From the NCBI GenBank assembly GCA_017625775.1, contig JAGAKE010000003.1, positions 62,001 to 126,000 on the forward strand: a DNA stretch of 64,000 nucleotides, read 5' to 3'. A program made the translations under genes and the position numbers. The notes below the pieces were generated by a model. That model was not told the DNA's origin and did no database searches. It was given only the letters and a program-made list of their open reading frames with translations. Position 1 is the first letter of the stretch, and each line of letters opens with the position of its first letter. Below are positions 2,205 through 57,505 of the stretch, one piece after another. The stretch comes from Fibrobacteraceae bacterium (GTDB taxonomy: Bacteria; Fibrobacterota; Fibrobacteria; Fibrobacterales; Fibrobacteraceae).

Positions 2205-2645
2205 ATGCGAAAAAAAAGTGACAACAAGGTAAAATTGAATGAGTCGAATATAAGTTCCTCATTTGTTTCCGAAGTGAAGCAAATAATTTATTTAGGACGT
2301 CAAAAAGCCTATGCTTCCATAAATTCGGCAATGATGGAAACTTATTGGAATATTGGCAAAAGAATTGTCATAGAGGAACAAAAGGGGGATAAAAGGGCTA
2401 AATACGGCAAAAGGCTCATTCAGGAATTATCCAAGGAATTGACTGGAACATTTGGAAAAGGGTTCAGTCCCCGGTACTTGGCCTATTTCCGCTTGTTCTA
2501 TACGGTAATCCCCGATATCAAGATTTTGCAAACGCGTTTGCAAAATTTGACTTGGTCGCATATTCTTAAGACATTGCGTGTAGAAAACCCCGTTGCCATG
2601 AGATGGTATCTGGATACAACACGCGAAAGCAAAAGATGGATTTGA
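2205..2645 (+). pseudogene. Truncated DUF1016 (YhcG-type) N-terminal domain protein
   Basis: The 146-aa product matches the N-terminal domain of DUF1016/YhcG proteins: an AYASINSAMMETYWNIGKRI helix region, then KYGKRLIQELSKEL and LTWSH...VENPVAMRWYL. Full family members are more than twice as long and end in a PD-(D/E)xK nuclease domain, which is missing: the frame stops soon after WYLD. ATG 2205 is preferred over GTG 2199 because GAGGGG lies just upstream. A 24-bp perfect palindrome lies inside the gene at 2523-2546. It overlaps no part of the preferred hsdS start. It may be a decayed insert or a short surviving protein; DUF1016 genes are often found inside type I restriction loci (family knowledge). 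Confidence 0.7.
2523..2546. repeat. 24-bp perfect palindrome inside the DUF1016 fragment
   Basis: The half site ATTTTGCAAACG is followed directly by its reverse complement. Because it is a perfect palindrome in this frame, both strands encode the same short peptide ILQTRLQNL. It lies where DUF1016 proteins vary in length. Confidence 0.85.
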
Positions 2646-2683
2646 GAAGTGAAGAGTTTGCAATATGTTTAAGGTTTTGGTTT

Positions 2684-4048: not shown

Positions 4049-4212
4049 AAAAAGACCAAAAACGCCTAATAAAGTCCCATATCTCGCAAAAATGATGGTT
4101 AATGGGACAAAATATCTTCAATACGGTCTTTTTCTTGCCTTTTTATGTAGAAAAAGACCTATTTTGTGTTTAAGTTGGGTCTTTTTCTCACTTTTTTTTA
4201 TAGAAAAAGACC
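4047..4212. repeat. Five-copy alternating inverted repeat, AGAAAAAGACC, between hsdS and the ATPase gene
   Basis: AGAAAAAGACC occurs at 4047-4057, 4149-4159 and 4202-4212, and its exact reverse complement at 4125-4135 and 4178-4188. Copies 4125/4149 and 4178/4202 form two hairpins with identical 11-bp stems and 13-nt loops, exactly 53 bp apart, so the unit is a diverged 53-bp tandem duplication. The first copy overlaps the hsdS stop codon. Possible roles are termination or attenuation after hsdS, or protein binding in front of the ATPase gene. Confidence 0.9.
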
Positions 4213-4257
4213 TGTTTGGGCAAAAATATCGTATTTTTTAAAAAAAAGTAGGTTGTC

Positions 4258-5709
4258 ATGTCTCAAAAGAACATCATCGGTCGCAAATACGAAATAGCCC
4301 AGTTGCAGGGATGTCTTGATTCCGGAGAGTCGGAACTTGTCGTTGTTTACGGCAGGCGGCGCGTCGGAAAGACTTTCCTTGTCAACGAGTTTTTTGACAA
4401 TCATTTTGACTTTAAGTTAACAGGTGTATTCAACGAGCCGACAAAGGTCCAGCTTGGCCGTTTTGCTGCCTCGATGGACGAGTATAGCGGAACACATTCC
4501 GAAGCACCTGAAAATTGGTTCAAGGCGTTCGACGCACTAAAAATGTACTTAAAGAGCTTGCACAAGAAACGCAAGATTGTCTTTATCGATGAAATGCCTT
4601 GGCTCGACACCACGAATTCCGGTTTTGTGCCTGCTCTGGAAGCTTTCTGGAACGGTTGGGCCGCGGCGCAACGGGATATCGTGCTGATTGCCTGCGGCTC
4701 CGCAACTTCATGGATGACCGACAAATTGCTTGGCGACAAGGGCGGGCTTTTCAACAGGTCTTCTGTTCGGTTGTTCGTGCAGCCTTTTACTCTTCACGAA
4801 ACAGAGCTTTACTTAAAATCCAAAGGGATAGACTGGACTCGTTACGACATTGCGGAATGTTACATGATCATGGGAGGCATTCCGTTCTATTTAAAACAAC
4901 TTAACGCCAAGTGGAGCTTTTCTCAAAACATCGACAACATGTTCTTCCGCAAAAATGCAGTGCTTTGGGATGAATTTGACCATCTTTATCACTCGCTTTT
5001 TAAACAGGCGGACGCCCATATTGCCATTGTCGAGGCGTTGGCCAAAAAGAAAATGGGATTGACCAGACTGGAAATCGCCAAAGAAACGAAAGTGCCGATC
5101 AATGGAAAACTCAGCAAGTTCTTGCGGAATCTTGAAATTAATGGATTTGTACTCCCGTATCAGTTCTTTGGCAAGAAAAAACAGGAAACCATTTATCAAC
5201 TTTCCGATTTTTACTCAATGTTTTACTTTGCTTATATCAAGGAAAATTACGGGAAGGATGAGCATTTTTGGACAAATGGTTTAGATAATCCGTCGAGATC
5301 AGCGTGGGCGGGCTTCACATTCGAACAGCTTTGCAAAAATCACCTGGAACAAATAAAACGTAAATTGGGAATAGCGGGAGTCCTTACGGAAACATCTTCG
5401 TGGTTTAGCAAAATCAAGGACGATTCCGACAAAGGCGAAAAACAGAAAAGAGGAGCGCAAATTGATTTGCTCATCGATCGCAGGGATCGCGTAATCAACC
5501 TCTGCGAAATCAAGTTCTCAATTAATGATTATATGATTGATGCCGATTACGAAAAAGCGTTACGAAATAAAATTGACGCTTTCAAACGAGAAACAGCGAC
5601 AAAGAAATCAGTACAACTAACGATGATAACGACATACGGTGTCAAGAAAAACAAGTACAGCAATCGTGTTCAAAGCGAAGTTGTGCTAAACGACTTGTTT
5701 GAGGAATAA
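4258..5709 (+). CDS. AAA-type ATPase with C-terminal nuclease-like domain (DUF234-type)
   Basis: The 483-aa protein has Walker A GRRRVGKT (residues 26-33), Walker B VFIDEMPW (about 108-115), a winged-helix segment near 255-300 and a C-terminal PD-(D/E)xK-like pattern QIDLLIDRR...LCEIKFS. This layout is that of the archaeal-type ATPase/DUF234 family, whose function is poorly known. It sits between hsdS and hsdR on the same strand and ends 12 bp before hsdR, so it probably shares their transcript downstream of the inverted-repeat array. Whether it helps restriction or is a passenger cannot be told from sequence. Confidence 0.88.
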   Translation: MSQKNIIGRKYEIAQLQGCLDSGESELVVVYGRRRVGKTFLVNEFFDNHFDFKLTGVFNEPTKVQLGRFAASMDEYSGTHSEAPENWFKAFDALKMYLKSLHKKRKIVFIDEMPWLDTTNSGFVPALEAFWNGWAAAQRDIVLIACGSATSWMTDKLLGDKGGLFNRSSVRLFVQPFTLHETELYLKSKGIDWTRYDIAECYMIMGGIPFYLKQLNAKWSFSQNIDNMFFRKNAVLWDEFDHLYHSLFKQADAHIAIVEALAKKKMGLTRLEIAKETKVPINGKLSKFLRNLEINGFVLPYQFFGKKKQETIYQLSDFYSMFYFAYIKENYGKDEHFWTNGLDNPSRSAWAGFTFEQLCKNHLEQIKRKLGIAGVLTETSSWFSKIKDDSDKGEKQKRGAQIDLLIDRRDRVINLCEIKFSINDYMIDADYEKALRNKIDAFKRETATKKSVQLTMITTYGVKKNKYSNRVQSEVVLNDLFEE

Positions 5710-5721
5710 GGACGGGTCTCT

Positions 5722-8700
5722 ATGAAGTTTACCATTAACGAACGTTACGATTACCAGCGCGGAATCATCAACTACCTTAGGGATAGCAATGGTTATAGGG
5801 TTCGCACCAATGCCAATTTCGACCGTAGGTACGCCATCGATGGTGAACTGCTGGTTGAGTTTCTTACGGCAACCCAGCCCAAGAAGGTTGAGGCGCTTCG
5901 AAAGATGTACAAGGGTGACTTTGAGGAAACCCTGTTCAACTATCTCAATCAGGAACTTAACCGTAAAGACGGTAGCTTGATTTCTACTCTGAAGCATGGC
6001 TTTGACATCGCAAACCAGCATCTGGACTTGATGTACACCAAGCCAGCTACCAGTTTCAATAAGGAACTGCTGGAAAATTACGGCAAGAACATTTTTTCCG
6101 TGGCAGAAGAAGTTTGGGCAAGTGATGACGAACGCATTGACCTGGTGATATTCCTGAACGGGATTGCCATCATTTCCTTTGAACTGAAGTCCAATCCCCA
6201 AGGGCAGAATTATTCTGACGCAATCCACCAGTATCGCACCCAGAGAAACCCCAAGACAAGGCTATTCCAGTTCAAGTCTGGCACATTGGTAAACTTTGCC
6301 ATGGACCTGAATGAAGTCTATATGACTACACGTCTGCAGGGGGAGACAACATCCTTCTTGCCGTTTAACATGGGAGATGGCAAGGGCGTTGATGCTGGCA
6401 AGGGGAATCCTGCCTGTACTGATGATTATCCAGTCCATTATATGTGGGAAGATATTCTCACTAAGGACACTTTGATTGACCTTATTTCCAGGTATATCTT
6501 CATCGAGACCAAGGAAAAAGTTGATGAACTCACTGGAAAGAAGTCTAAGACCGAAACAATCATATTCCCGCGATACCATCAGTTGGATTGCCTGAGAAAG
6601 ATCCTTGCCGATGTGGGCGAAAACAGGTCTGCGTTCAATTACCTGATTCAGCATAGCGCGGGTAGTGGCAAGACAAATACCATCGCGTGGCTTTCGCACA
6701 GGTTCTCTTCGCTGCACGACAGTGACGACAAGCAGATTTTTGACAACGTGGTGGTGGTAACTGACCGCGTGGTGGTCGATAGACAGTTGCAGGCGGCTAT
6801 CAGCGGAATCGAGCACAAGTCCGGGCTTTTCAAGCCCATGAAGGACGACTGTACTTCGGACGATTTGCGCAAGGCGCTCGAAGGAAACACGAAGATTATT
6901 GCGACGACAATCCAGAAATTCCCCTACATTGTAGATTCGGTCGCATCGCTCAAGGGGAAGACTTTCGCCGTCATTATCGACGAGGCACATTCCTCTACTG
7001 CGGGCAAAAATATGGCTGCCATTACCAAGGCTCTCGGCAAGGGGGCTTCGGCGGGTTCTGCGGCCGACGGCGAAGATGAAATCGACGTAGAAGATTCCAT
7101 TGTCGATGAAATCAACAGGAACGGCAAACAGGATAACGTATCGTTCTTCGCGTTTACGGCGACTCCCAAGCCCACGACGTTGCAGCTGTTCGGGCGCATC
7201 AACAAAGATGGCCACAGCGAAGCGTTCCATACATACTCAATGAAGCAGGCGATTGAAGAAGGCTTTATTCTGGACGTATTGCAGAACTACATCACCTATA
7301 AGACGTTCTACCAGGTCAACAAGGCTATTCAGGATGACCCTGAACTAGAAACAAAGAAGGCGAAGCGACAGATTGCCCGTTCCGCTGAATTACATGATAC
7401 CAACATTGCCCAGCGTGTAGAAGTCATTGTGGAACATTTCCGCACCACGGTCATGTCTGAATTGGGTGGCACAGCCAAGGCCATGGTCATTACGGATTCC
7501 CGTCAGGGGGCGGTAAAGTACCGCAAGGCGATGGAAGACTATCTGAATAAGAAGGGATATACAGACATCAAGGCTCTGGTGGCATTCTCTGGCAAGGTCA
7601 AGGTGGACGATGAAGAGTTTACCGAACCAAAGATGAACGGCTTTGCCGAAGAAAAGCTGCCCCAGATGTTCGACAAGGATGATTACAAGGTCCTTTTGGT
7701 GGCCAATAAGTATCAGACAGGTTTCGACCAGAAGAAACTCTGTGCCATGTATGTCCTTAAGAAGTTGCGGGGTGTGAACGCTGTCCAAACATTGTCTAGA
7801 CTGAACCGTATTTGTACCCCTTATAACAAGAGAACCTTCATTCTTGATTTCAAAAACGAATATGACGATATGAAGGCCGCTTTTGCCCCGTACTTTACAT
7901 CAACATTCCTTGCCAACTCCGTCAATCCTAGAGGCATTTACGAGCTGGAAAAGAAGATTGATGCCTACTGCATTATCGACTTTGATGATGTGGCCAAGTA
8001 CAATGAATGGATGTATAAGGGCATGATGGACAAGAAGAAGACTGAAATCAATGCCTTGCTTGTACGTGCCCAGAAGTTTGTTGAGAAATACGAACCGGAT
8101 GAACAGCTGGAATTTGTGGGCTTGCTCCGTAGCTTTGTCAGATTCTATGAGTTCATGCTTCAGGTGACTAATTTCCAGGATGTGGAATTGCACAAGAAGT
8201 ATAACTTCATTGTAGCGTTGTTGTCTTACCTAGATATCAAACAGCCAGGAAACGGATTCTCCCTTAAGGACAAGATTAAGATTGATAATTTTGTCCAGAA
8301 GAAAGATGAAGTGCATGAAAAGCCGAACCTTGTTGCCAAGCCTTTCTTGAAGTTGCCTATTGCTGAAAAATTTGGCTTGACCGAGGATAAGAAACAGAGA
8401 TTGTCTGAAATCATTGCGGATATCAATAGCAGAAACGGAACCGCCTTTGATACGGATGTCGCTGTAAAGGCCGCACTCCAGATACGTGACATCATGATGA
8501 AGAACGAAAATCTGAAGAAGAGTGCCGCATCCAATACCGAAAAGGATTTTGCATTCCCGTTCTATGACAATATCGATGACGCCTTGATTGAAGGTTTAGA
8601 CCAAAACGAGTCCTTCTTCTCGCTCTTGCTCAACAATGCGGAAATCAAAAAGGAAGTCCTTGGCATTTTCATGAGTGAAATCTATAAGAGCCTGAGAAAG

Positions 8701-8775
8701 CCTAGTGTGAACGAATTTAGTGGAATGCCGATGGCTGCTGAGAATAAGCCGATGTATAACGAGGGGAAGAAGTAA
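5722..8775 (+). CDS. hsdR: Type I restriction endonuclease subunit (HsdR)
   Basis: Motor and nuclease subunit that translocates and cleaves unmodified DNA. The 1017-aa protein has an N-terminal PD-(D/E)xK nuclease (Asp140, then FELKS with Glu154 and Lys156), an SF2 translocase with Walker A HSAGSGKT (311-318), DEAH (420-423) and FTATP (478-482), a second RecA lobe with TGFDQKKL and QTLSRLNR, and the C-terminal helical domain that docks on HsdM. All key motifs are intact. An AAGGA lies over the stop of the preceding ATPase gene. The stretch around 6900-7200 is visibly richer in GC and in GCG/TCG codons than the rest, possibly a recombined patch. Confidence 0.96.
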   Translation: MKFTINERYDYQRGIINYLRDSNGYRVRTNANFDRRYAIDGELLVEFLTATQPKKVEALRKMYKGDFEETLFNYLNQELNRKDGSLISTLKHGFDIANQHLDLMYTKPATSFNKELLENYGKNIFSVAEEVWASDDERIDLVIFLNGIAIISFELKSNPQGQNYSDAIHQYRTQRNPKTRLFQFKSGTLVNFAMDLNEVYMTTRLQGETTSFLPFNMGDGKGVDAGKGNPACTDDYPVHYMWEDILTKDTLIDLISRYIFIETKEKVDELTGKKSKTETIIFPRYHQLDCLRKILADVGENRSAFNYLIQHSAGSGKTNTIAWLSHRFSSLHDSDDKQIFDNVVVVTDRVVVDRQLQAAISGIEHKSGLFKPMKDDCTSDDLRKALEGNTKIIATTIQKFPYIVDSVASLKGKTFAVIIDEAHSSTAGKNMAAITKALGKGASAGSAADGEDEIDVEDSIVDEINRNGKQDNVSFFAFTATPKPTTLQLFGRINKDGHSEAFHTYSMKQAIEEGFILDVLQNYITYKTFYQVNKAIQDDPELETKKAKRQIARSAELHDTNIAQRVEVIVEHFRTTVMSELGGTAKAMVITDSRQGAVKYRKAMEDYLNKKGYTDIKALVAFSGKVKVDDEEFTEPKMNGFAEEKLPQMFDKDDYKVLLVANKYQTGFDQKKLCAMYVLKKLRGVNAVQTLSRLNRICTPYNKRTFILDFKNEYDDMKAAFAPYFTSTFLANSVNPRGIYELEKKIDAYCIIDFDDVAKYNEWMYKGMMDKKKTEINALLVRAQKFVEKYEPDEQLEFVGLLRSFVRFYEFMLQVTNFQDVELHKKYNFIVALLSYLDIKQPGNGFSLKDKIKIDNFVQKKDEVHEKPNLVAKPFLKLPIAEKFGLTEDKKQRLSEIIADINSRNGTAFDTDVAVKAALQIRDIMMKNENLKKSAASNTEKDFAFPFYDNIDDALIEGLDQNESFFSLLLNNAEIKKEVLGIFMSEIYKSLRKPSVNEFSGMPMAAENKPMYNEGKK

Positions 8776-36047: not shown

Positions 36048-37016
36048 TTATTTGGTTAAGAATTTTAAGATTTTTTCTGTATAAATTTTTCGACCTTTAG
36101 AGGATAAATGAATTCGATCTTGAAATGATTCGGGATCACTTGAATTAAAAGAAACTGCTTGTTCAAGATAATTAAAGTTAGAATCTAATTGTTGCATAAA
36201 TTGTGCTGTAGTTTCTGACAAGGAGAATGTAATGTTTTCTGCTTTAGCTAACTCTACATATTCTTGCATTATTTTTAAATAATTAGAGTCTAAAGCGATT
36301 TCAATATATTTCGGGGTTTCTATTAAAACCAATTCAATACGATTGTTTATGCATAATTCTTTGATTTTTAAAAGAGCTTCTTTTTGTTCTTGCCGGAAGT
36401 TATAGTTTTCCATTATTACAGGAGGTAAACTTCTAATAATACTATCGGTGTTGCCTGGATTAAAAGCTGTGTTACCGCCTCTTAAATAACGGGAATCTGT
36501 TAGTTTTTGGTTCAGAGGCCATGTCCATAAAATTTCATTGTTAGAAGTAACAAACATTTGAAAAAAATCATTAAAAGAGGCTAGATTATTTTCTTTAAGA
36601 ATTTTCCAAAAATTCAACTTGGTAGAAAAATTAGTGTGCAGAAATAAACGTTCATCGCTTACTTTTGGGGGAGCGATAACTGAATAGGCATACATATCAA
36701 GGTATAAAGTTTTAAATTGGACGTTGTTGTCTAAGAGTTCTTTTAGAATAATGTATTCAAAAACAGGCTGATTGCCATTATAAGCAAGAATCCACGAGGA
36801 ATTTGGAATTTTATTTTCTAAAACATGAATATCAATACCTTGCCTAAACATAGATGAACCTAAAAAAATATTTTCTGCTGAGGCTGTTTTAGAGATAAGA
36901 GTTTGAATTCCGTATGGAGATTTTTTTGTGAGAAAACGAGCAAATTCATTTTTTGCTAAGATCAAAAGCAGACAAGTAATGAGAACTAGAAAAAAAATTT
37001 TAATTAGTTTTGCCAT
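36048..37016 (-). CDS. Membrane-anchored SGNH-like protein, partner of the MBOAT acyltransferase
   Basis: The 322-aa product has an N-terminal membrane anchor (residues 4-22), a Ser-containing block I IFLGSSMFRQGID (about 50-62), and a C-terminal DRIHLSSKGRKIYTE that supplies the Asp-His pair, so it resembles SGNH/DltD/AlgX-type proteins that hand on acyl groups outside the membrane. It is encoded 9 bp after the MBOAT gene on the same strand. Likely role (inference): acetylation of an exported polysaccharide. Confidence 0.7.
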   Translation of the reverse strand: MAKLIKIFFLVLITCLLLILAKNEFARFLTKKSPYGIQTLISKTASAENIFLGSSMFRQGIDIHVLENKIPNSSWILAYNGNQPVFEYIILKELLDNNVQFKTLYLDMYAYSVIAPPKVSDERLFLHTNFSTKLNFWKILKENNLASFNDFFQMFVTSNNEILWTWPLNQKLTDSRYLRGGNTAFNPGNTDSIIRSLPPVIMENYNFRQEQKEALLKIKELCINNRIELVLIETPKYIEIALDSNYLKIMQEYVELAKAENITFSLSETTAQFMQQLDSNFNYLEQAVSFNSSDPESFQDRIHLSSKGRKIYTEKILKFLTK

Positions 37017-37025
37017 TTTTAGATC

Positions 37026-38402
37026 CTAGAAATTAGCGTATAAGAACGGAGAATTTCCTGTTTGACAAAATAGGAAAATACAGAACAAATGAATTCCGAA
37101 AAATAAATACTCTTTATCTTTTTGTTTTTCTTGCAAATATTCTTGAATGAATAGAATAAAAGTAAATATGAGAGTTGTTAAAAAATGAGCCATGCAAGTG
37201 TTTGCATAGGTAAAGGGTAATAACGAATTTGTGATAGCCGAAATATTTAATGAAAAATCAAAAATTAAATGAGATAAGAATAAACGTAGAGCATCAAAGG
37301 ATTCTATTCTAAACAATAACCACCCAAAAAGAACAATAGAGAATGTTAGAAAAAAAGCTAGAATTTTTGTAGGTAATGAGAATTTGGTAACATCCTGTTT
37401 GGGAGTTAGGCTATTAAAAACGCCATGCCAAAGCCCCCATAAAATAAAGTGTAGAGCGTTTCCGTGCCAAATACCACATACGCCAAAAGTAGCGAGAGTA
37501 TTAAAAAATTTCCTTGCGTTTCCTTTGCGGTTTCCTCCAAGTGGAATGTAGATGTAATCACGAAGCCAAGAAGAAAGAGAAATATGCCAACGTCTCCAGA
37601 AGTCTCTAATGTTTAAAGCAAAATAAGGTCTTTTGAAATTATCTTCACAAGAAATTCCAAACATTTTTGTGATTCCAACGGCAATTTCAGAATACCCTCC
37701 AAAATCGCAGTAGAGTTGTAGAGCAAATAAAAGAAGCGCTAGAAGAAGAGCAAAAGATGGGAATGATTCAGGAGAGTTAAAAATTGTGTTGGTATAGGCA
37801 GCGATTCTGTCGGCGATAACTATTTTTTTGAATAAGCCAGAAGTGAGTAAAAGAACGCCTTGCCTAAACAAATTGGGGTTATAAGAAAGGCCTTTTTTTA
37901 TTGGTTCTGTGATGGTGTTAGAGCGTAAGATAGGTCCGCAAATAAGATGCGGAAAAAAGGATATGTAAGTGGCGTAAGAAACAAAGGATGTTTCAACCAT
38001 GCGAGTTTTCTTAAATACATCAATGAGATAACTAATAGCCTTAAAACTATAGTAGGAAATGCCGAGAGGAAGAAGAACTGATTTGAAGGATAGTGAAAAG
38101 TGTTCTATAAAAAAGTCAAAGTATTTGAATCCTGCAAGAATTCCTAAAACAGACAAAATTCCGAGAACGAGATAGCATTTTGATTTTTTTGAATTGTCGG
38201 AATGTTTTGAAATTTCGTTTGCTATAAAAAAAGTAAGAAGAATTTCTAAAATCAGAAGTCCAAGAAATCGAAAATCACATAATCCATAAAACAAAAAACT
38301 AGAAGTAAAAAGAATGAAAGGCCTAGCTTTTTTGGGAAAAAGATAAAAAATAGCTAAGGTAGTGAAACAGAAAAGTAGAAATAGATAAATGCTGAATTGC
38401 AT
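37026..38402 (-). CDS. MBOAT-family O-acyltransferase (AlgI/DltB-like)
   Basis: The 458-aa membrane protein has the MBOAT signature DFWRRWHISLSSWLRDYIYI and the conserved histidine in GIWHGNALHFILWGLWHG (about residues 312-329), with about ten membrane segments. MBOAT proteins move acyl groups across the inner membrane onto polysaccharides. It is co-encoded with the SGNH-like gene downstream. Confidence 0.92.
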   Translation of the reverse strand: MQFSIYLFLLFCFTTLAIFYLFPKKARPFILFTSSFLFYGLCDFRFLGLLILEILLTFFIANEISKHSDNSKKSKCYLVLGILSVLGILAGFKYFDFFIEHFSLSFKSVLLPLGISYYSFKAISYLIDVFKKTRMVETSFVSYATYISFFPHLICGPILRSNTITEPIKKGLSYNPNLFRQGVLLLTSGLFKKIVIADRIAAYTNTIFNSPESFPSFALLLALLLFALQLYCDFGGYSEIAVGITKMFGISCEDNFKRPYFALNIRDFWRRWHISLSSWLRDYIYIPLGGNRKGNARKFFNTLATFGVCGIWHGNALHFILWGLWHGVFNSLTPKQDVTKFSLPTKILAFFLTFSIVLFGWLLFRIESFDALRLFLSHLIFDFSLNISAITNSLLPFTYANTCMAHFLTTLIFTFILFIQEYLQEKQKDKEYLFFGIHLFCIFLFCQTGNSPFLYANF

Positions 38403-41171: not shown

Positions 41172-41198
41172 AAAAAAAGGCCTCGGCTTGCGCCGAGG
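41172..41198 (-). terminator. Terminator after the lamin-tail lipoprotein operon
   Basis: On the minus strand, CCTCGGC/GCCGAGG with loop GCAA is followed by a run of T. Confidence 0.85.
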
Positions 41199-41213: not shown

Positions 41214-42773
41214 TTATTTTTCGCCAGGAGTTGGTAAATTTGCCGTCCATGCTCCAGGATCACTTCCTGGCATAGAATAATCGGCTCGATGTAAACTCAT
41301 TCCCATGCCATCGGCTTCTTCAGACCAAAGGCCATCATCAGAATAGAGCACCACATCTGACCAACGATAGCACCAATCAATCGCATTTGGCTTTGTTAAG
41401 TCTTCTACAAAAGCGTAAGGTTCCTTTACGAGAATTTGTTCGCCTCGGTTAGAAATTTTTCCTGAATATTTTTGAAGAACAACATCTTTTGAAAGTGTTG
41501 CTGCATAGGCCTCTAAATCTAAAATATTTGTGTCTGGAAGCATTAACAAAAGACCACCCGCAGGAATGCTAAGTGTTTCTAAATCAGAATCTCCTAGACC
41601 GCTAATTTCCCAAACGCCTGTTTTGCTTCCAATAGGTAATGAAAGTGTTACTGCGGAATCTGCAGTGTTTATGATTTCAATAAATTCTAATTGGCCTTCT
41701 GGAGGATTGTAAAAAATTTCATTGACATAAAGTGGCCCAGATAATAATTCAGAAACGTTCTTCTTTTCAGGAGTAGCTTTTTTCAAACTTCCCTGCATAA
41801 GAGAGCCGTCAGAAAGTTCTAAAATGCCTGCTGTTCCCGAAGGAGTCGCTGGGTATTCTAGACCAGTTTCCGAAAGAGTCCAGGTACCATTTACATATTC
41901 GCGTAAATAGAGATTTTCGCCGCGTTTTAGCAAAAGAAGATCGTCTTCAAATTGTTCTTGTTTGAGAACAAAGTAACTTTCGGCAGGCACGATACTTCCT
42001 TCAGGAATGCTTAATGTATCGCCTCGGCGGCTAGCAATTAGAAGCCAACCAGAAATATCAACATCGTTTTTTCCTGAATTATAGAATTCAATCCAATCTT
42101 CAGAGCCATCTGTTGGGGCAACCTCGTTTATGCGAACAGTTAAAGGAGCATAAACTTCATCTTCGCTAGAGCCTGGATTGCCTCCATTCTTTTTGCTTGC
42201 AGCCCAGTTATTTGGCATAGAAGCATTTCCGCCTAAGAATACAAGTGAAGAACCGGCTCCATCAGCAAGACTTGGCCAAGGGGGAGAGTTATCAAAGGAA
42301 CAATCAATGTCGCCAGCTCCGCGTAATTTTACAGAAATGACATCGCCACCATTGGATAATTTTTCGACTTCGCCTTTATTGTCATTATTCCAAGGTCCAA
42401 ATAAACGACCATTAAAATCAGGGTATGCCTTTTTGAATGCATCAAGGTCTCCAGTTACAACAAGGCGTTCACCTTTTTTCATGGGTTCTTCTGGGAAGTT
42501 GTATTCTACAGCACCATCTAAACGAAGTTCAGAAAGAGCCATGTTTTCAAGATCCTCGCCAGATTCAATATAAATTTCAACCCATTCTACAAGCGAATCT
42601 GGGTGATGGTACATGATTTCAGAACATGCCATTTGAGTGAGTGGTTTTGAATCGCTAGGAGAATTTCCATCGCCGTTTCCTGAGGAACTAGAAGATGAAT
42701 CGTCGCTACAAGCAATCAATGCAGAGGATGCTAAACATAGAAGCATCGAGTATTTTAAAGGATTTAGATTCAT
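41214..42773 (-). CDS. Lipoprotein with repeated lamin-tail (LTD) domains
   Basis: The 519-aa product has a lipobox LIAC (Cys22), a SDDSSSSSSGNGDG linker like those of Fibrobacter lipoproteins, and three LTD-like beta domains. These start near residues 47 (CSEIMYHHPDSLVEWVEIYI), 213 (INEVAPTDGSEDWIEFYNSG) and 350 (VNEIFYNPPEGQLEFIEIIN). Such domains occur on bacterial surface proteins, often beside CotH kinase domains; no CotH domain is present here. It is the last gene of the operon running from 46764. Confidence 0.85.
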   Translation of the reverse strand: MNLNPLKYSMLLCLASSALIACSDDSSSSSSGNGDGNSPSDSKPLTQMACSEIMYHHPDSLVEWVEIYIESGEDLENMALSELRLDGAVEYNFPEEPMKKGERLVVTGDLDAFKKAYPDFNGRLFGPWNNDNKGEVEKLSNGGDVISVKLRGAGDIDCSFDNSPPWPSLADGAGSSLVFLGGNASMPNNWAASKKNGGNPGSSEDEVYAPLTVRINEVAPTDGSEDWIEFYNSGKNDVDISGWLLIASRRGDTLSIPEGSIVPAESYFVLKQEQFEDDLLLLKRGENLYLREYVNGTWTLSETGLEYPATPSGTAGILELSDGSLMQGSLKKATPEKKNVSELLSGPLYVNEIFYNPPEGQLEFIEIINTADSAVTLSLPIGSKTGVWEISGLGDSDLETLSIPAGGLLLMLPDTNILDLEAYAATLSKDVVLQKYSGKISNRGEQILVKEPYAFVEDLTKPNAIDWCYRWSDVVLYSDDGLWSEEADGMGMSLHRADYSMPGSDPGAWTANLPTPGEK

Positions 42774-42816
42774 AAGACTCCTTCTGTTTATATAGGGAAT
42801 ATACTTTTTTCTAGTT

Positions 42817-43641
42817 CTAATCAGAAAAATTTCCCGCTAAGTGAGTGTAATTTGGAGTACGAAAACCCCTAGGGTTTTCATAAACTCTTTGCCATTCTGC
42901 GGCGGCATTCCCAAATTTTGAAAATCCGGCTAATTTTAAATTGAGCATGTGAATTAAATCCATCATCCAAAATGGAACTTGAGAACAAGGGCATTTTAAT
43001 TCGAGAACAGCGTCACAACCAGGCGCAAAAAAACGAGGTAATCCAGTAGAATGCATGTAACGAGGATCTACAGTATAATCAAAACCATTTTCTTCGCGGA
43101 ATCGCATACAAGTATCAATGGTTACTCTTGAGTATTCTTCTGTGGTGCTGAACCAAGCTCGCCTTTTATATTGAGTTAATAATCTTGGATTAGCGTTAAA
43201 CGTTTTTACTTTATATAAGTATTCTTCTAAATATTTTCGGTCGCGTTCTGTTTTTACAGGCCATTCTTCAGGGGAATGATTAAATACAAATGAAGGATTT
43301 TCTCCTTTAATAGTAGCTCTGCTTTTAAAACAAACATTTCGGATTTTTCTTTTTACTTCAAAGTGGAAAGTTCCTTTTGGGTCGGGATGTTCTCCATAGG
43401 TTCTGATTCGCATATTAAATCTATCAAGCAACCTTGATTTTTTCCATCTTAAAAAAGTCCAATTAGGAGAATCAAGATAAAGATTGGTTATCCAATAAAA
43501 ACCACCTGGCGTGATTTTTGAATAATAATCTTCTTCGCAATATGGTGAAATAATTTGACCAATAAGATCAGCCCACTCCACAGGAATGTGGTATTTTAAT
43601 TCAAAACGTTCTAGTAGGCTAAATCCACGGGCTCCCGCCAT
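42817..43641 (-). CDS. VTC-domain (polyphosphate polymerase-like) protein
   Basis: The 274-aa product has the VTC tunnel-fold pattern: ERFELKYHIP, RLLDRFNMRIRTYG, FHFEVKRKIRN, TQYKRRAWFS and a late AVLELKCPC, with conserved basic residues for phosphate chains and Glu for metal. Members are proposed to make or bind polyphosphate. ATG 43641 is chosen because GGGAG lies 9 bases before it; an earlier ATG at 43656 lacks a binding site. The start overlaps the stop of the TolC-like gene by one base (TAATG). Confidence 0.85.
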   Translation of the reverse strand: MAGARGFSLLERFELKYHIPVEWADLIGQIISPYCEEDYYSKITPGGFYWITNLYLDSPNWTFLRWKKSRLLDRFNMRIRTYGEHPDPKGTFHFEVKRKIRNVCFKSRATIKGENPSFVFNHSPEEWPVKTERDRKYLEEYLYKVKTFNANPRLLTQYKRRAWFSTTEEYSRVTIDTCMRFREENGFDYTVDPRYMHSTGLPRFFAPGCDAVLELKCPCSQVPFWMMDLIHMLNLKLAGFSKFGNAAAEWQRVYENPRGFRTPNYTHLAGNFSD

Positions 43642-44963
43642 TAACGATTCTCCCATTCAAAATGTTTGGAAATATCTTTTGCGGCTAGCTTCCCAGCGTA
43701 ATCCAAGATAATTAAATAGCGAGAATAAATTTCGTATTCTAATTCAAGCGCTTTCATTTCACTTTCAAGAGACACATCTTTAGCTCGCAATAATAATAAT
43801 GGGTCTGAACCAGAACGAGCAGCAAACTCTTCAAATACATCGCCAGCATCAACACGTTCTACAAAGTTTTTTTGAACGTTACGTTGAGCGATTAAAGCAA
43901 GAGTTTCTTCACGAATACGTGCTACTTTTTGAGTGATGTCTCGTTTCTCATCTAAATAATCACTTTCGGCTTCAAGGACGTCTAATTGCCTTTTTGTTTC
44001 ATCTCCACCATCAGTGCCAAAGAATGGTAAACGTAGTGAAAGGGTGGCGTAAAATTTATCTCGCGTGCGTCGGTCGTCATCTTTTTTAGTGATTTTCCAT
44101 TCTTTATCTGCGACAGCAACTTTATTTTCGTAATCATAGGAATATGTTCCTGTTTTTACAGAATCGTATTCATAAGAGCCGAAGGAATGTTTGTACCCAA
44201 TTCCAATGGAAGAAATGATTTTGTTCGCTCCTGTTTTTTCTTGTTCGTATTGTTTTGATTCTACATTCCATTTTTGTTTTGCCATAGCGACTGCTGGGTA
44301 AGTATCATCAACAATGAGATTCCCTTTTAATATAGATTCAATTTCTGAAATGCTTGGAAGAAATCCTGAATCTAATGCAACAGAATCAAACTCCACCCAA
44401 GAACGAAATTTCATTTCAATATCGCGCAAAGCATTACTGTCTGCGATGAGTTTTGCTTGCAATTCAGATTCTCGTTCAAGAGCGCTAATTAAGTTGTCTG
44501 GACTAAATGTTTCGCTTCCACTTTTTAAATGCAAAACTTCAAGTCTATCTTTATTTACGGTTTCCATATCCCAATGCAATTGTTGTTTGCGCTTTTGGGT
44601 TAAATAACGGAGCGCCCTTTCGTATCTTTCATAAACAAAGTAAGATCTATAAAAGTCGGCACGACTTTGTTGGTAAGAACTTTGAGCTTCCCAATAAGAT
44701 TTTGTGCTGTTGCCTTCTCCAAATACTTTTGGTTTAAAACGGAGTTCAAAATCGTGTTCCATAAAGCCAAAGCCATCAAGTTTATATTGGAGTTCAAGGC
44801 TATTCCATAATTTTACAGAAGTGCCTGTTTGAATGGCGTTCTTTTTCTTTTCTCCTGCTAAAACGGCAGGCTCTGTTTCAACAGAACTTATTAACCGCTC
44901 AAAAGTTAATGGCTCGGCAGCAATCGGTAAAGCGAAAAATAATCCTAGAAGTAGTTGTTTCAT
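43641..44963 (-). CDS. TolC-like outer-membrane efflux protein
   Basis: The 440-aa product has a signal peptide (MKQLLLGLFFALPIAAEP) followed by long coiled-coil-like helices and short aromatic strands, as in outer-membrane factors (for example the SSYQQSRADFYRSYFVYERY and VARIREETLALIAQRN helices). It would provide the outer-membrane duct for the HlyD-like adaptor encoded just upstream (21 bp). No inner-membrane transporter of RND, ABC or MFS type is in the operon. Confidence 0.78.
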   Translation of the reverse strand: MKQLLLGLFFALPIAAEPLTFERLISSVETEPAVLAGEKKKNAIQTGTSVKLWNSLELQYKLDGFGFMEHDFELRFKPKVFGEGNSTKSYWEAQSSYQQSRADFYRSYFVYERYERALRYLTQKRKQQLHWDMETVNKDRLEVLHLKSGSETFSPDNLISALERESELQAKLIADSNALRDIEMKFRSWVEFDSVALDSGFLPSISEIESILKGNLIVDDTYPAVAMAKQKWNVESKQYEQEKTGANKIISSIGIGYKHSFGSYEYDSVKTGTYSYDYENKVAVADKEWKITKKDDDRRTRDKFYATLSLRLPFFGTDGGDETKRQLDVLEAESDYLDEKRDITQKVARIREETLALIAQRNVQKNFVERVDAGDVFEEFAARSGSDPLLLLRAKDVSLESEMKALELEYEIYSRYLIILDYAGKLAAKDISKHFEWENR

Positions 44964-44984
44964 TTGTTCCTCATCTAGTGAATT

Positions 44985-46079
44985 TTAAGGTGCTGTTACC
45001 GAAAGAGAGTCATTATTTGCCGATGTATTTAAAAGGTTTTTCCAATCAGGAAGTTCTGTGATGGAAACTTTTTCTCCAAGAAGAAATCCACTATTTTCTG
45101 GAATAGCTACATTCACTTCTCTTCCATACATTGGAAAATCAGGAGACTTTAAAAGGCGTAGAGGGAATGGAACAATTTGGCTACTCATTCCAACGATTTT
45201 ACCGCGTACTTTAGATTGAGTTCCAAGAGTTGATACTTCTACTTCATCACCGACTTCAATTTTACTATGTAGATTTTCGTGAAGATAGCCACGAACAAGA
45301 GAAGGCTCTTTTCTAGTGAGAGTCATTAAAGGATTAAAGGAAGAAACTTTTTCTCCGTCTCGAGCGAGAATGGAGCCAACGACCCATTCGCCTTTAGCCA
45401 AAATCGTTTGTTCTTTCATTTCTTGTTGCAAACGTTCTAATTCTTTTTGCAAAAGCTTTGCTTCCGAAGCGTTAGATTCTGCTTGTTTTCCTTTGCTTCC
45501 TCGTAACAAGCGAATTTGAGTAGCTGCATTGGCTTCTAAAACAGAAAGTTCCTTTTTCATACTTTGAATTCGTGCTGCCATAGCATCATTTTCGCTAGAT
45601 GGTCCTGTTCCAGAAAGAGATTTTAAACGAGCGGCTATCGCGAGATTTTGCTTGTATTCTGATTCTAATTTTTGAATTTCAAACTTGAGTGTATTTCGAC
45701 GCGTATCTAAATCAGCTTTGATTTCTGCCACTTTTTGATCTACAGAAGCCATTGAAACATTTCCTCTGCCTTCAAGTGCGTCTAATTCCCTTTTAAGTTC
45801 GTTCATACGAAGCGCTAAATCTGGACGACTAAGTTCTATTAGGGTATCACCGTCTTTTACTTCTTCACCGACTTCTACATGCAATTTGATGACTTCAACC
45901 GCAGAAGGAACACTTACTGTAATCGCTGTAGCTTCAGCAATTCCGCTAAAGACTACATCACTTCCTTTGGTGACATAAGAAACAGAAATAATCGCTGCAA
46001 GAGAAAGAGTCCATGCAATGCCCATTTTTTTGGAGACGATTGTTTTTCTATCAAAGAAGGCGTGGATTTTTTCAAACAT
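44985..46079 (-). CDS. HlyD-like periplasmic adaptor (membrane fusion protein)
   Basis: The 364-aa product has an N-terminal membrane anchor (about 20-36), a biotinyl-lipoyl-like first half (VSVPSAVEVIKLHVEVGEEV, then KDGDTLIEL), a coiled-coil hairpin (about 90-225) and a C-terminal barrel. It would bridge inner and outer membranes. It starts one base after the DUF4956 stop, so the two are translated together, which suggests the DUF4956 protein is its inner-membrane partner (inference). Confidence 0.85.
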   Translation of the reverse strand: MFEKIHAFFDRKTIVSKKMGIAWTLSLAAIISVSYVTKGSDVVFSGIAEATAITVSVPSAVEVIKLHVEVGEEVKDGDTLIELSRPDLALRMNELKRELDALEGRGNVSMASVDQKVAEIKADLDTRRNTLKFEIQKLESEYKQNLAIAARLKSLSGTGPSSENDAMAARIQSMKKELSVLEANAATQIRLLRGSKGKQAESNASEAKLLQKELERLQQEMKEQTILAKGEWVVGSILARDGEKVSSFNPLMTLTRKEPSLVRGYLHENLHSKIEVGDEVEVSTLGTQSKVRGKIVGMSSQIVPFPLRLLKSPDFPMYGREVNVAIPENSGFLLGEKVSITELPDWKNLLNTSANNDSLSVTAP

Positions 46080-46080
46080 A

Positions 46081-46764
46081 TTACATCTCCGTTACAGCAT
46101 CTTGCATCATGAAATTTACATCGGAAACGCCTTCTATAGAAGATAAAGCGGAAAGAACTTCTGCCGCGGGATGCTTTCTTGATAAGCGGACTTGGTAAGC
46201 TACATCCATTCTTTCTCCTCCATCAACTTCTCGCATAGTAATTAGAACAAACGTTCGAATGTTTGCTTTCATCACTTTTTCTACAGCAAGCCTAGCCTCG
46301 CTTTCGTTGGGCATGGCAAATCGTAACATGCCGTCATAAAAATGCCTTGTGCCAAGCCCTGTTCCGCTTAATATAAAGGCGACAATACAAAAAGCGAGAG
46401 TTCCACCTGCAGCAACGCCCCAAGCAAAAACACCGCAGCCAATTCCTGCGCCGAGGGCTGCAAAAAGGAACATGATGTCTCTAGGGTCTTTAAAACTAGT
46501 TCGGAAGCGGACAATAGAAAGAGCTCCAAGCATTCCGAGACCGCGCCCAACGTTGTCGCCAATAGCTTGCATTACGGTAGCAGAAACTACAGTAGAGAGT
46601 ACGAGCGCCTGGACGAAATTTCTAGAATAAGATAATCCTTTAAATGTCTTTTCGTATGTCCAACCAATAAGAGACGAAAGAACAAACGCTAAAAGAAGTG
46701 TGTAAACCATGGTCACCAAAGTAGGATGAGCCGTGCTAGATTGGACTGCCATGAGGTCAAGCAT
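46081..46764 (-). CDS. DUF4956 family membrane protein
   Basis: The 227-aa product has about four membrane segments (near 17-35, 51-64, 92-103 and 109-130), the conserved GRGLGMLGALSIVRFRTSFK and PRDIMFLFAALGAGIGCG motifs, and a C-terminal soluble domain of about 85 residues. Function is unknown; in other bacteria the family is encoded near CotH and VTC proteins (family knowledge). It is the first gene of the operon, with GGAG five bases upstream of its ATG. Confidence 0.85.
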   Translation of the reverse strand: MLDLMAVQSSTAHPTLVTMVYTLLLAFVLSSLIGWTYEKTFKGLSYSRNFVQALVLSTVVSATVMQAIGDNVGRGLGMLGALSIVRFRTSFKDPRDIMFLFAALGAGIGCGVFAWGVAAGGTLAFCIVAFILSGTGLGTRHFYDGMLRFAMPNESEARLAVEKVMKANIRTFVLITMREVDGGERMDVAYQVRLSRKHPAAEVLSALSSIEGVSDVNFMMQDAVTEM

Positions 46765-46955
46765 AAATGCTCCAATATGAAAAGAATAAAGTTACCATAA
46801 AAGTTATTTTCTTCTAAGGAAAAACAGAGTGAAATTTTTGTAAAAAACATCAGAAAATGGGTAAAAATAGAAGTGTTATGAGAGAAAAAGTCCCTTTTTA
46901 ACATAAAAGAAGTAAAAAGAAAGAAAAATTCATTTTATAACGAGGTTTTTAGCGG

Positions 46956-46984
46956 TTGTTTTTTTGGGAATTTTTATTTATATA
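46956..46984 (+). promoter_or_regulatory. Candidate rubrerythrin promoter
   Basis: TTGTTT at 46956-46961, 17-bp spacer, TATATA at 46979-46984. An AAGGAG binding site follows before the ATG at 47011. The rest of the 246-bp divergent spacer shows nothing else assignable. Confidence 0.4.
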
Positions 46985-47010
46985 TTCGAGAAAATCACCA
47001 AGGAGTATAT

Positions 47011-54409: not shown

Positions 54410-57400
54410 TTATTCTGTGGCTGCCTTAAAAAGTATAGGCAAAATGGTGTAAGGTAAACTTTCAATCTTTTTAATTTTATAACCATAATCTTTGGTATCT
54501 TTGTTATCACTATCTAAAACAATCTTTAATTTGTTTGTACGGAGCGTCATGCGTTTACCAGATAGTGAAGAACCGGCGTATTTGCCAAGCAATTTATCTT
54601 TTGCATCATAAATATAAATGGTGTCTCCAGAACCGAGAGCAGCTTCTGCACCAAAAGTAACGTAATTTTCAAGATTATCCCCTAAATCATATTCACATTG
54701 CAAAGTTGACATTGGCGGGTATGGAGAAATTACGCCACAAATTGAATCATTTAAAGGAACATCACTTGCTAAAGATACAACTTGGGCGCTTGTATCTAAA
54801 ATACCATTCCCTTGGGTAACACTTGTTCCCATTACAACCACTTGCCATATTCCTGATTCAGGATTATCTACATCAACAACTTCTACATTATTTAAATGGT
54901 CAAAACATTCAGAATCTAATTTATAAGGTTTGTTACAATCTCTTACGGCGTCTTGAATGTCACTTAATTTTATTTTTTCCGTACCCTTATGATGCCATCC
55001 AAAGGTTGTTTTTTCTAATTCATCTGTTGGTAATGGGTTTAATCTCCATGGATAATAATATTTCCCTGAAGGTGAAATTAAATATATATCCAAATCATTG
55101 ATCAATTTAGAATCCGTATAGAAAAGTTTTGGGGGGATTATCGAATCTATCTCTCCATAAGCATCGTCCCAAACCATGGTTACACGGAAGGCGTCTTTGT
55201 TTGGTGCAATATACAGATTCCAACGTTTTTCTACACCATTTGCAACTTCTGTTTCCATATAGCGATTTTCTTCTAATAGCTGAAGAGCTTTTTTTGCATT
55301 GACTTTACCCCAACCTGTAGCAAAATCAGGACCTTTTCCATAAGGTGTATAATAATTATTCCCATCATTTTCAGAATGTGTAATATCAGGGTTGGGTCTC
55401 ATGTATTTTTTTGTTTCTTCTGTAATGGACACTTCCATATCTTCTGCGGTGTGAATGAGCATGGCTTTAATAGTTGAATTCCGTAAGGATTTTTTTTCTA
55501 AAGGTATTCCAGTGATTTCTCGGTAGCGTTGATAGATTAAAGCGGCAATGCCTGAAACAAATGGGGCAGACATAGAAGTTCCACCATCTGGCATATCAAA
55601 ATAACAACTTTCCATATTTTTTTCATTACATGGGTAGGGAGAATGAATAGGGATTACTTTTTCATTAACTATTTCTAATTCTGCTCCGGGAGCCATTACA
55701 TCAGGTTTAATACGACCATCCCAAGTTGGTCCCATACTAGATTTAGAAAAGCGAATTCCTGTTAAAGCAGAGTAATTCCCAACTGTAATTGCGTTTTTTG
55801 AATTAGAAAGAATGGAATGATAACCAATTTGGTAACCGTATTTTTCTCCTGGACTAGCAAACCCATTATTGCCAGCTCCTACAACGACTGCTTTTGTTAA
55901 CGTATCACCATCATCAGTAAAAGTTTTCCAATTGTTAAAAATATTTTTGTCGACATTATAATTCGTTATTTCATACCAGCCACACTTATTAACGTCTGTA
56001 TGAGAATGATTAACCACATGCCCTATTTGTTTGTAGTACTCCATACTACTTGAATAAAAATGTACTTTAGGAGCAACACCACGATATTTGTATTCAGGTG
56101 AAAAAGAACCATTACCTCCCAAAATACCCGCAACTGTTGTTGCGTGCCAAGGCTCATCTTCCTCGGGATCTGATGGATTATATTCTTTCATTTCTTTCAA
56201 TACGTTATCCTTATTCTCTTCTTTAACAAATAACTCCTCTTTTCGAACTTTTCTAGGAACCATATTTCCATTTTCATCTATTTCATTAAAATCGGGGTGA
56301 CTCCAATCAATTCCAGAATCATATACTCCTACAACAATTCCTTCTCCAGTATAACCGGCATTAGATAGCCATTCTAAATCAGCATTTTTTTGTTTTAAAT
56401 ACTTTTGCCATTCTTCTGAATTTTGCAATTCGGTCACACGAATCGCTTCTCTACCAACGTCGTTTAAAGGAGCTCCTAAACGCACAACACCTACATACTC
56501 AATGTCATTATGTTCTAGCAAACAGTCTTTTTGATTTTTGGGCAATAATCCTAAAATCTCATGGTGGTCGATTTTAACATTTTTTACGCCACAATTTTGC
56601 GCAATGCTTTTACATACTTCCATAGAAACATCAGCAAAACAAGAAATTGTTATAGAAAATGAATCTAAATTTTCCTCTTCAGGCAAAAGTTCTAATGTTA
56701 ATTTTGTAGTATCATCAACAGGAAACGCATTATAAAACCCATACATATTTTCATTTAGAATTTTCTTAATTTGTTTGGGATTGACTTTTAATAAGTACAA
56801 CGAAAAGCCCTGATATTTACTTCCTTCTAAATCGTCTATCCCATTTTGTTTTAATAGTTTTCTTTCTTTGCTTGACAAAGGAGTTTCTTTTAATAACCAA
56901 AAACGACCTGGATTTAAAATTTCTGTTGAATCTGAATATGGATAAATTACAGATTTTCCGCCTCTATCATACCACAAAACAACATCAGATTTTCTTTTGC
57001 CAGAAATGGGATCAACTCCCCACAGCAATTCTTTTGAAGCGTCATAAACAGCTACCCAATAATGCGGTTCTTGTGTAGCTGATTTTTGTTGGTAAGAAAA
57101 ATCTTTTGAGCAATCCCATGCACTCCAATTATTTTTATGTATTCTAAAATGAATATCTAGTGATTGGGAGGGTTGTAAAACACCCGTTAATTTTATTTGA
57201 AAAATATTATATGCTCCAGTAATAAATGATTCTACCTTTGTTGAATAAAAATAAGTGACGTAATCCACATCTAAAACAAGACTAGAATCTTCTGTATTTT
57301 CTGCAAAGTAATAAACTTCTGGATTGATAATTGATGTGGTTGATGTATTGGTAATTTTTAATCTGTATTCAACCCAATTCCATTCAGTGCGATGTCTTTC

Positions 57401-57487
57401 TGAAAGTAACTGAATTGTCAAGGGGACTTGTTCCTTGGCCAATAACTGTATTGCAAACAGCAGCAAAAGACAAAGACCTCTCAACAT
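54410..57487 (-). CDS. Secreted subtilisin-family (S8) serine protease with CBM3-like N-terminal domain
   Basis: The product is 1025 aa from ATG 57487 (an in-frame TTG at 57502 is less likely). It has a signal peptide, then an N-terminal beta domain (about 20-135) whose YRLKITNTSTTSIINPEVYY and LQPSQSLDIHFRIHKNNWSA resemble family 3 cellulose-binding modules. The S8 catalytic domain follows, with Asp390 (VYDSGID), His448 (WHATTVAG, where most have HGT), oxyanion Asn540 (GAGNNG) and Ser638 (GGTSMSAP). The C-terminal region holds beta domains, one CUB-like (CEYDLGDNLENYVTFGA). All triad residues are present. It is in an operon with the 140-aa secreted protein and paralogues B and A. Confidence 0.88.
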   Translation of the reverse strand: MLRGLCLLLLFAIQLLAKEQVPLTIQLLSERHRTEWNWVEYRLKITNTSTTSIINPEVYYFAENTEDSSLVLDVDYVTYFYSTKVESFITGAYNIFQIKLTGVLQPSQSLDIHFRIHKNNWSAWDCSKDFSYQQKSATQEPHYWVAVYDASKELLWGVDPISGKRKSDVVLWYDRGGKSVIYPYSDSTEILNPGRFWLLKETPLSSKERKLLKQNGIDDLEGSKYQGFSLYLLKVNPKQIKKILNENMYGFYNAFPVDDTTKLTLELLPEEENLDSFSITISCFADVSMEVCKSIAQNCGVKNVKIDHHEILGLLPKNQKDCLLEHNDIEYVGVVRLGAPLNDVGREAIRVTELQNSEEWQKYLKQKNADLEWLSNAGYTGEGIVVGVYDSGIDWSHPDFNEIDENGNMVPRKVRKEELFVKEENKDNVLKEMKEYNPSDPEEDEPWHATTVAGILGGNGSFSPEYKYRGVAPKVHFYSSSMEYYKQIGHVVNHSHTDVNKCGWYEITNYNVDKNIFNNWKTFTDDGDTLTKAVVVGAGNNGFASPGEKYGYQIGYHSILSNSKNAITVGNYSALTGIRFSKSSMGPTWDGRIKPDVMAPGAELEIVNEKVIPIHSPYPCNEKNMESCYFDMPDGGTSMSAPFVSGIAALIYQRYREITGIPLEKKSLRNSTIKAMLIHTAEDMEVSITEETKKYMRPNPDITHSENDGNNYYTPYGKGPDFATGWGKVNAKKALQLLEENRYMETEVANGVEKRWNLYIAPNKDAFRVTMVWDDAYGEIDSIIPPKLFYTDSKLINDLDIYLISPSGKYYYPWRLNPLPTDELEKTTFGWHHKGTEKIKLSDIQDAVRDCNKPYKLDSECFDHLNNVEVVDVDNPESGIWQVVVMGTSVTQGNGILDTSAQVVSLASDVPLNDSICGVISPYPPMSTLQCEYDLGDNLENYVTFGAEAALGSGDTIYIYDAKDKLLGKYAGSSLSGKRMTLRTNKLKIVLDSDNKDTKDYGYKIKKIESLPYTILPILFKAATE

Positions 57488-57505
57488 TTGAAAACCTATC
57501 AATTG

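Follow-up and report, generated by a model that had tools for sequence, protein, structure and literature searches.

A conserved operon of Fibrobacterota joining DUF4956 to a HlyD-type adaptor and a TolC-type duct: a possible trans-envelope conduit linked to CotH kinases

The VTC complex of yeast synthesises and translocates polyphosphate. In Gram-positive bacteria, a polyphosphate polymerase gene is grouped with genes for CotH and a DUF4956 protein as an accessory group of pel loci (PMC7112168), and these accessory genes accompany pel in streptococci and clostridia and also, the fourth gene being a different one, in bifidobacteria (PMC7112168, PMC12345266). Systems made of a periplasmic adaptor and an outer-membrane duct are described as requiring an ABC, RND or MFS transporter (PMC8277102). 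Here we describe an operon in which DUF4956, an adaptor, a duct, a VTC protein and a lipoprotein with lamin-tail-type (LTD) domains are encoded together. It lies in a 64,000-nucleotide stretch of a Fibrobacteraceae genome (contig JAGAKE010000003.1, positions 62,001 to 126,000; the window hereafter) whose assembly is estimated to be 71% complete; its nearest named contigs likewise belong to this family. Our favoured reading, which is tentative, is that the products of the operon together form a dedicated conduit across the envelope, with DUF4956 as its putative inner-membrane partner, and that this conduit would serve CotH-linked surface phosphorylation. The five genes are as follows.

46081-46764, minus strand: DUF4956 membrane protein, 227 amino acids (PF16316, E 2.2e-13)
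44985-46079, minus strand: HlyD-type periplasmic adaptor (membrane fusion protein), 364 amino acids (HlyD_3, E 3.3e-07)
43641-44963, minus strand: TolC-type outer-membrane duct, 440 amino acids, with a signal-peptide-like N-terminus (OEP, E 9.3e-06)
42817-43656, minus strand: VTC (polyphosphate polymerase) domain protein, 279 amino acids (PF09359, E 9.6e-32)
41214-42773, minus strand: LTD lipoprotein, 519 amino acids, with lamin-tail-type domains behind a lipobox (LTD, E 1.1e-21, two stretches)

All five proteins score above the curated Pfam cut-offs, and the open reading frame (ORF) map and Pfam place the genes where a first-pass annotation, made from the DNA letters alone, had put them. DUF4956 and the adaptor are separated by a one-base gap, the adaptor and duct by 21 bases, and VTC and LTD by 43 bases, while the duct and VTC genes overlap by 16 bases.

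The adaptor and DUF4956 are co-inherited. The HlyD1 adaptor (E<=1e-12) was detected in 20 of 21 genomes carrying the matching DUF4956 type and in none of 19 genomes without it (n=40; Fisher 3e-10), and the single miss, G277, nonetheless has an adaptor beside DUF4956. In a tree of 78 DUF4956 proteins, those accompanied by HlyD1 plus TolC, by HlyD2 and by HlyD3 each form one strongly supported clade, so that clades match adaptor types one to one and the adaptor-type label requires the fewest possible changes. Pairwise divergences of DUF4956, HlyD1, TolC and VTC are correlated at 0.90-0.94 over 18 loci, although common descent by itself would push this value up too. In the neighbourhoods from three phyla no pump gene recurred next to the unit, and Pfam recognised no ABC, RND or MFS gene among the genes tested on both sides of the operon, in line with the first-pass annotation, which had noted none in the unit; nor were the adaptor and duct found grouped with a known pump in place of DUF4956. 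DUF4956 would be the inner-membrane partner of the conduit, the part for which it had been put forward as a candidate, because this is the simplest account of the co-inheritance, the matching of adaptor types and the missing pump; the genomic support for this role is good, though short of proof.

It is quite improbable that the operon belongs to a conventional tripartite efflux or type I secretion system relying on an ABC, MFS or RND pump that acts in trans, DUF4956 and VTC being unrelated genes that share the transcript. The duct and adaptor do come from common families, and at about 40 loci of the genus Fibrobacter a TolC-HlyD-ABC-2 permease cassette lies directly downstream of LTD on the same strand (at L257:1-4701, a TolC of 606 amino acids, a HlyD of 332 amino acids and ABC-2 permeases). 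However, this cassette comes with an adaptor and a duct of its own and was not seen at L031 and L032, from the genus of the window, nor at L034, L035, L048, L089 and L092, and it is therefore a clade-specific neighbour. The co-inheritance of adaptor and DUF4956, and the lack of a recurrent pump gene beside the unit, also argue against a pump in trans.

Of 101 Fibrobacteraceae genomes, 94 carry DUF4956, each in a single copy, and the order DUF4956-HlyD-TolC-VTC-LTD is the same in the named Fibrobacteraceae contigs wherever the contig is long enough; it is also kept in further families of the Fibrobacterota. Because this order recurs in nearly all Fibrobacteraceae loci, the arrangement is more than chance. 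Genera g5 and g8 have a different DUF4956 type and their genomes are without the HlyD1 adaptor; at the g5 locus whose neighbours were read (L154), the variant DUF4956 adjoins VTC and CotH. A profile built from window-type DUF4956 (A1) matched 128 of 168 Fibrobacterota, 59 of 395 Bacteroidota and 36 of 296 Spirochaetota genomes. The neighbourhoods fall into five types: (a) DUF4956-HlyD1-TolC-VTC(-LTD), often with CotH, in Fibrobacterota, one member of the Bacteroidota (L215) and one spirochaete (L094, where LTD was not found); (b) DUF4956-HlyD1-TolC alone, in other Bacteroidota; (c) HlyD2-VTC-DUF4956; (d) VTC-DUF4956-HlyD3; and (e) VTC-DUF4956-CotH without an adaptor, in most spirochaetes and some Fibrobacterota. 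DUF4956-HlyD-TolC-VTC is present at 16 of the 20 Fibrobacterota loci chosen for diversity. HlyD and TolC partners of DUF4956 thus recur in Fibrobacterota, Bacteroidota and one spirochaete, and the adaptor is adjacent at 61 of 64 Bacteroidota DUF4956 loci, contrary to the first-pass view that an efflux-type pair is less usual in this company. The literature searched contained no description of the adaptor-duct form of DUF4956: three papers in it name DUF4956, none of them in connection with such a gene set, and combinations of DUF4956 or VTC with other parts gave nothing. The unit is real, conserved and, as had been suggested, undescribed in that literature, and it is broader than the first-pass annotation supposed.

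The duct has the TolC fold that had been claimed for it, as supported by an AlphaFold2 model of high confidence (pLDDT 86.7), for which all 44 significant Foldseek matches were TolC/OprM-type ducts (best E 2.4e-13); the OEP family of Pfam was found in 20 of 35 relatives. NCBIfam searches gave no family above cut-off for the window proteins, the adaptor being EmrA/MdtN-like below it, and by profile the adaptor matched EmrA (8zar, E 3.9e-07). Its hairpin tip, RLKSLSGTGPSS (residues 151-162), reads R-x3-L-x6-S and is partly conserved in relatives. The RLS motif by which adaptors dock TolC (PMC3391258) occurs in exact form in 2 of 17 HlyD1-subfamily adaptors, against a shuffled mean of 2.7, and in 13 of 14 HlyD2 adaptors, against 1.5 in shuffles. 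The HlyD2 members tested scored with no Pfam HlyD family, and their profile matched membrane-fusion proteins (hhalign 97%, E 1.8e-11; also MacA/AcrA/EmrA). These results indicate that HlyD2 is a membrane-fusion protein, expected to dock a TolC-type duct encoded elsewhere. In one Fibrobacterota family a beta-propeller (DUF3616/SdiA-regulated/phytase-like) is fused to the adaptor or encoded just after it; the adaptor C-terminus carries such an SdiA-regulated/phytase-like/DUF3616 propeller at L138, L143 and L255, and at some HlyD2 loci (L226, L239) the gene after DUF4956 encodes an SdiA-regulated beta-propeller lipoprotein.

The window DUF4956 protein scores 50.7 bits against the PF16316 curated cut-off of 30.6 and has four hydrophobic transmembrane cores and one further predicted helix. 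In an AlphaFold2 model of moderate confidence (pLDDT 72.8), five helices are followed by a C-terminal alpha-beta domain that is ACT/ferredoxin-like. Foldseek matches fall mainly on this domain and comprise ACT-like and similar domains, including the MgtC C-terminus (2lqj), all at E > 0.001, and a sequence search for a DUF4956 relative of known structure found none. The Pfam MgtC profile (PF02308) weakly matches 20 of 33 DUF4956 relatives (best 4.1e-05) and is the sole other Pfam family recurring widely among these 33; the window protein reaches 11.6 bits, under the curated cut-off of 31.4. In Bacteroides thetaiotaomicron, a DUF4956-DUF2490 pair (BT3498-99) appears in an iron-dependent stimulon table (PMC10434189).

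The main rival explanation, which we regard as doubtful, starts from this likeness. DUF4956 would be an MgtC-like regulator whose membrane part binds a partner enzyme and whose ACT-like domain senses a small molecule, so controlling surface polymer or phosphate metabolism, with the adaptor and duct serving a pump elsewhere and being merely co-regulated. In Streptococcus intermedius, deletion of SIR_1592 (MgtC/ACT) gave more Pel and, in one medium, over 50% less aggregation, whereas deletion of the secreted CotH gene gave less Pel (PMC12345266). From PMC7112168 and PMC12345266 taken together we infer that SIR_1592 is a DUF4956 protein; its loss phenotype looks regulatory and fits a regulator about as well as it fits a conduit. 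The weak, recurrent MgtC similarity and the ACT-like C-terminus also point to a regulator, as do the spirochaetes, where DUF4956, VTC and CotH occur without an adaptor. Against this, each of three adaptor types has its own DUF4956 clade, a tight tracking that would not be expected of a mere regulator; the adaptor subfamily was not detected in the 19 genomes without its DUF4956; and DUF4956, adaptor and duct are all that can be recognised of the unit in 19 Bacteroidota.

The link to CotH kinases is the strongest functional clue. CotH directly adjoins the operon in many Fibrobacterota and at L215 and L094, and is present in 34 of 35 DUF4956-positive and 14 of 60 DUF4956-negative Bacteroidota tested (Fisher 2.5e-13, uncorrected for phylogeny or genome size). 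In the window no CotH gene is adjacent to the operon, and three CotH genes lie elsewhere in its incomplete genome. CotH is a more constant partner than VTC, because almost all positive Bacteroidota have CotH whereas VTC is lacking in 19 of the 20 Bacteroidota genomes that have DUF4956-HlyD1-TolC. That DUF4956-VTC-CotH neighbourhoods are known, as the first-pass annotation noted, agrees with the literature, but that annotation did not tie the link to CotH to the adaptor-duct variant. By eye, the three CotH proteins from the genome of the window look like lipoproteins; no such claim is made for CotH proteins in general, as the strict lipobox pattern fits just 16 of 55 long CotH ORFs, partly owing to uncertain start codons. 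Two neighbours at other loci are recorded here: directly upstream of the operon at L092 (8101-9891) is a gene for a lipoprotein-like protein with a PPDK_N (PEP-synthase-type ATP-binding) domain, possibly a further phosphotransfer enzyme outside the cytoplasm, and at L228 (5579-7375, Bacteroidota) a Cthe_2159 carbohydrate-binding protein adjoins a HlyD2-VTC-DUF4956 set.

The window VTC protein is apparently catalytically competent, judging from its residues. Fifteen columns are invariant in 27 highly diverse members, including R83, R85, E100, K102, R165, R177, E219, K221 and K247, and a broad family profile best matched the yeast catalytic subunit Vtc4 (3g3q, 3.7e-21) with these residues aligned; a PDB search with the single window protein gave chance matches only, and the broad profile was required. 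An arginine pair and a glutamate altered in entries 7ytj and 5iig, which we take to be Vtc4 catalytic mutants, align to the invariant R83, R85 and E219. A strict polyphosphate secretion machine, in which VTC makes polyphosphate, DUF4956 is the channel and adaptor and duct carry the polymer outward, is nevertheless unlikely. The kept residues, the occurrence of VTC within the operon in almost every Fibrobacterota example, and the precedent of the yeast complex for a synthase-driven route that needs no pump all fit it. Its difficulty is the lack of any VTC gene in the 19 Bacteroidota just mentioned, which makes VTC dispensable and polyphosphate not an obligatory substrate; the polyphosphate suggested in the first-pass annotation is thus not supported as a general substrate. 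Moreover, deletion of the S. intermedius polymerase gene SIR_1593 brought no reported change in aggregation or Pel (PMC12345266).

The LTD lipoprotein had been proposed as a surface end point, and its lipobox cysteine is invariant in 16 relatives.

42708-42710, minus strand: codon of Cys22, the invariant lipobox cysteine of the LTD protein (alignment column C22)

That it is a necessary end point is not supported, however, because its gene is missing at some loci, such as L136 and L146, which are otherwise complete.

In the conduit that we favour, DUF4956, MgtC-like and with its ACT-like domain, would fill the inner-membrane place usual for an ABC, RND or MFS pump, the HlyD-type adaptor would span the periplasm and the TolC-type duct would cross the outer membrane. 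A phosphate-rich product would thereby reach the cell surface, the proposed site of action of CotH and the LTD lipoproteins. At loci with VTC this would be polyphosphate that the enzyme synthesises on the cytoplasmic face, and at loci without it another phosphate donor or a CotH-linked product. If VTC is part of the operon, elongation of the chain at the membrane might by itself drive export, by analogy with the yeast VTC complex and synthase-dependent polysaccharide secretion, so that no pump would be needed. Since CotH acts outside the cytoplasm and the VTC kind of enzyme makes a phosphate polymer, surface phosphorylation or phosphate-polymer assembly would be the most likely process served. 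Computation shows the gene set and its co-inheritance, the duct and adaptor folds, the conservation of the VTC catalytic residues and the association with CotH; from these we infer a physical complex, a direction of transport, a substrate and an energy source. A more far-reaching version is rather unlikely: DUF4956 would represent a novel class of inner-membrane partner, distinct from ABC, RND and MFS, and the machine would deliver across the envelope the phosphate donor or phosphate polymer that powers CotH kinases in a compartment not expected to contain ATP.

Several observations weigh against the conduit, in addition to the uncorrected CotH statistic, the Bacteroidota without VTC (for its polyphosphate part) and the streptococcal polymerase deletion, for which no change in aggregation or Pel is reported. 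MgtC relatives are known as regulators of ATP synthase and phosphate sensing, not as pumps, and the DUF4956 protein is small. The adaptor and duct are missing at 16 of 17 spirochaete and 4 of 20 Fibrobacterota DUF4956 loci, so DUF4956 works also without a conduit. Genome G165, which is 96% complete, carries the system and has no detectable CotH. Genome G120, which also has the full set, holds a second copy (L255) of HlyD-TolC-LTD without DUF4956. The L255 set consists of the propeller-fused HlyD, TolC and a 709-amino-acid LTD protein, with no VTC, and is preceded by an apparent response regulator and sensor kinase.

It is very unlikely that the unit builds or regulates a Pel-like surface exopolysaccharide, with CotH and DUF4956 acting as in the Gram-positive pel locus and the adaptor and duct exporting the polysaccharide. 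DUF4956, CotH and polyphosphate polymerase genes do accompany pel in Gram-positives (PMC7112168, PMC12345266), and a carbohydrate-binding protein adjoins one Bacteroidota locus. No pel-type gene, however, was recognised beside the unit among the loci whose neighbours were scanned. To our knowledge, TolC-type ducts do not serve as ports for Pel-type polysaccharides, a role filled by PelB.

Two further features border the operon.

41181-41198, minus strand: intrinsic-terminator-like hairpin 3' of the LTD stop (7-pair stem, 6 G-C, then CCTTTTTTTA)
46765-47010, no strand assigned: intergenic region between DUF4956 and the divergent rubrerythrin gene, presumed to contain the operon promoter (ORF map)

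The hairpin begins about 16 bases past the LTD stop and is followed by a T-run; it matches the terminator consensus and is a candidate only. A sigma-70-type promoter scan of 46765-47010 gave no match, the yield of the scan being no better than in shuffled sequence. By Pfam, the flanking genes encode the divergent rubrerythrin, an NhaA-type antiporter, a flippase-like Polysacc_synt protein, an MBOAT protein, a PRPP-synthetase-like protein and a decarboxylase. The MBOAT O-acyltransferase and an adjacent 322-amino-acid protein without a Pfam family (36048-38402) recall surface-polymer acetylation pairs. A pump hidden elsewhere in the window, at 2603-8775 (a 1017-amino-acid and neighbouring large ORFs), was considered and rejected, as these are the genes of a type I restriction system (specificity subunit, ATPase and HsdR) and not an RND set. 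An anti-phage defence role was likewise rejected, PADLOC matching none of the five proteins. A subtilase-type protein of 1030 amino acids is encoded at 54410-57502.

If the conduit is real, the widespread, co-inherited DUF4956 set of Fibrobacterota and Bacteroidota would represent a novel route across two membranes, and the tie to CotH would open to experiment the question of where extracytoplasmic kinases in diderm bacteria obtain their phosphate donor.

The operon differs from each of the known systems that it resembles. Like AcrAB-TolC, MacAB-TolC, EmrAB-TolC and HlyBD-TolC (PMC8277102), it combines a membrane-fusion adaptor and a TolC-fold duct in one operon, but in contrast to such tripartite efflux and type I secretion systems DUF4956 stands at the inner-membrane place, the unit has no ABC, RND or MFS transporter, and the canonical RLS motif is not conserved at the tip of HlyD1-subfamily adaptors. 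With the yeast VTC complex (Vtc1/Vtc4) it shares a VTC domain with the same catalytic residues alongside a small membrane protein; here, however, the membrane part is a separate MgtC-like protein, a periplasmic and outer-membrane conduit is added, and the window VTC protein is a bare VTC domain with no SPX domain by Pfam. DUF4956 resembles the MgtC family in profile and in its C-terminal domain, but the window protein lies below the family cut-off and its context is CotH, VTC and an adaptor, not Mg2+ transport. The Gram-positive pel module (SIR_1592-1594) likewise has a DUF4956-type MgtC-like membrane part with an ACT domain, a VTC enzyme and a secreted CotH; VTC and DUF4956 share the operon in the window and CotH is adjacent in many Fibrobacterota relatives, whereas pel genes are absent from the window operon and an adaptor, a TolC duct and an LTD lipoprotein are added. 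The three-gene arrangement was reported as not found outside the Pel locus (PMC12345266), whereas in our analysis CotH, VTC and DUF4956 occur together in three other phyla.

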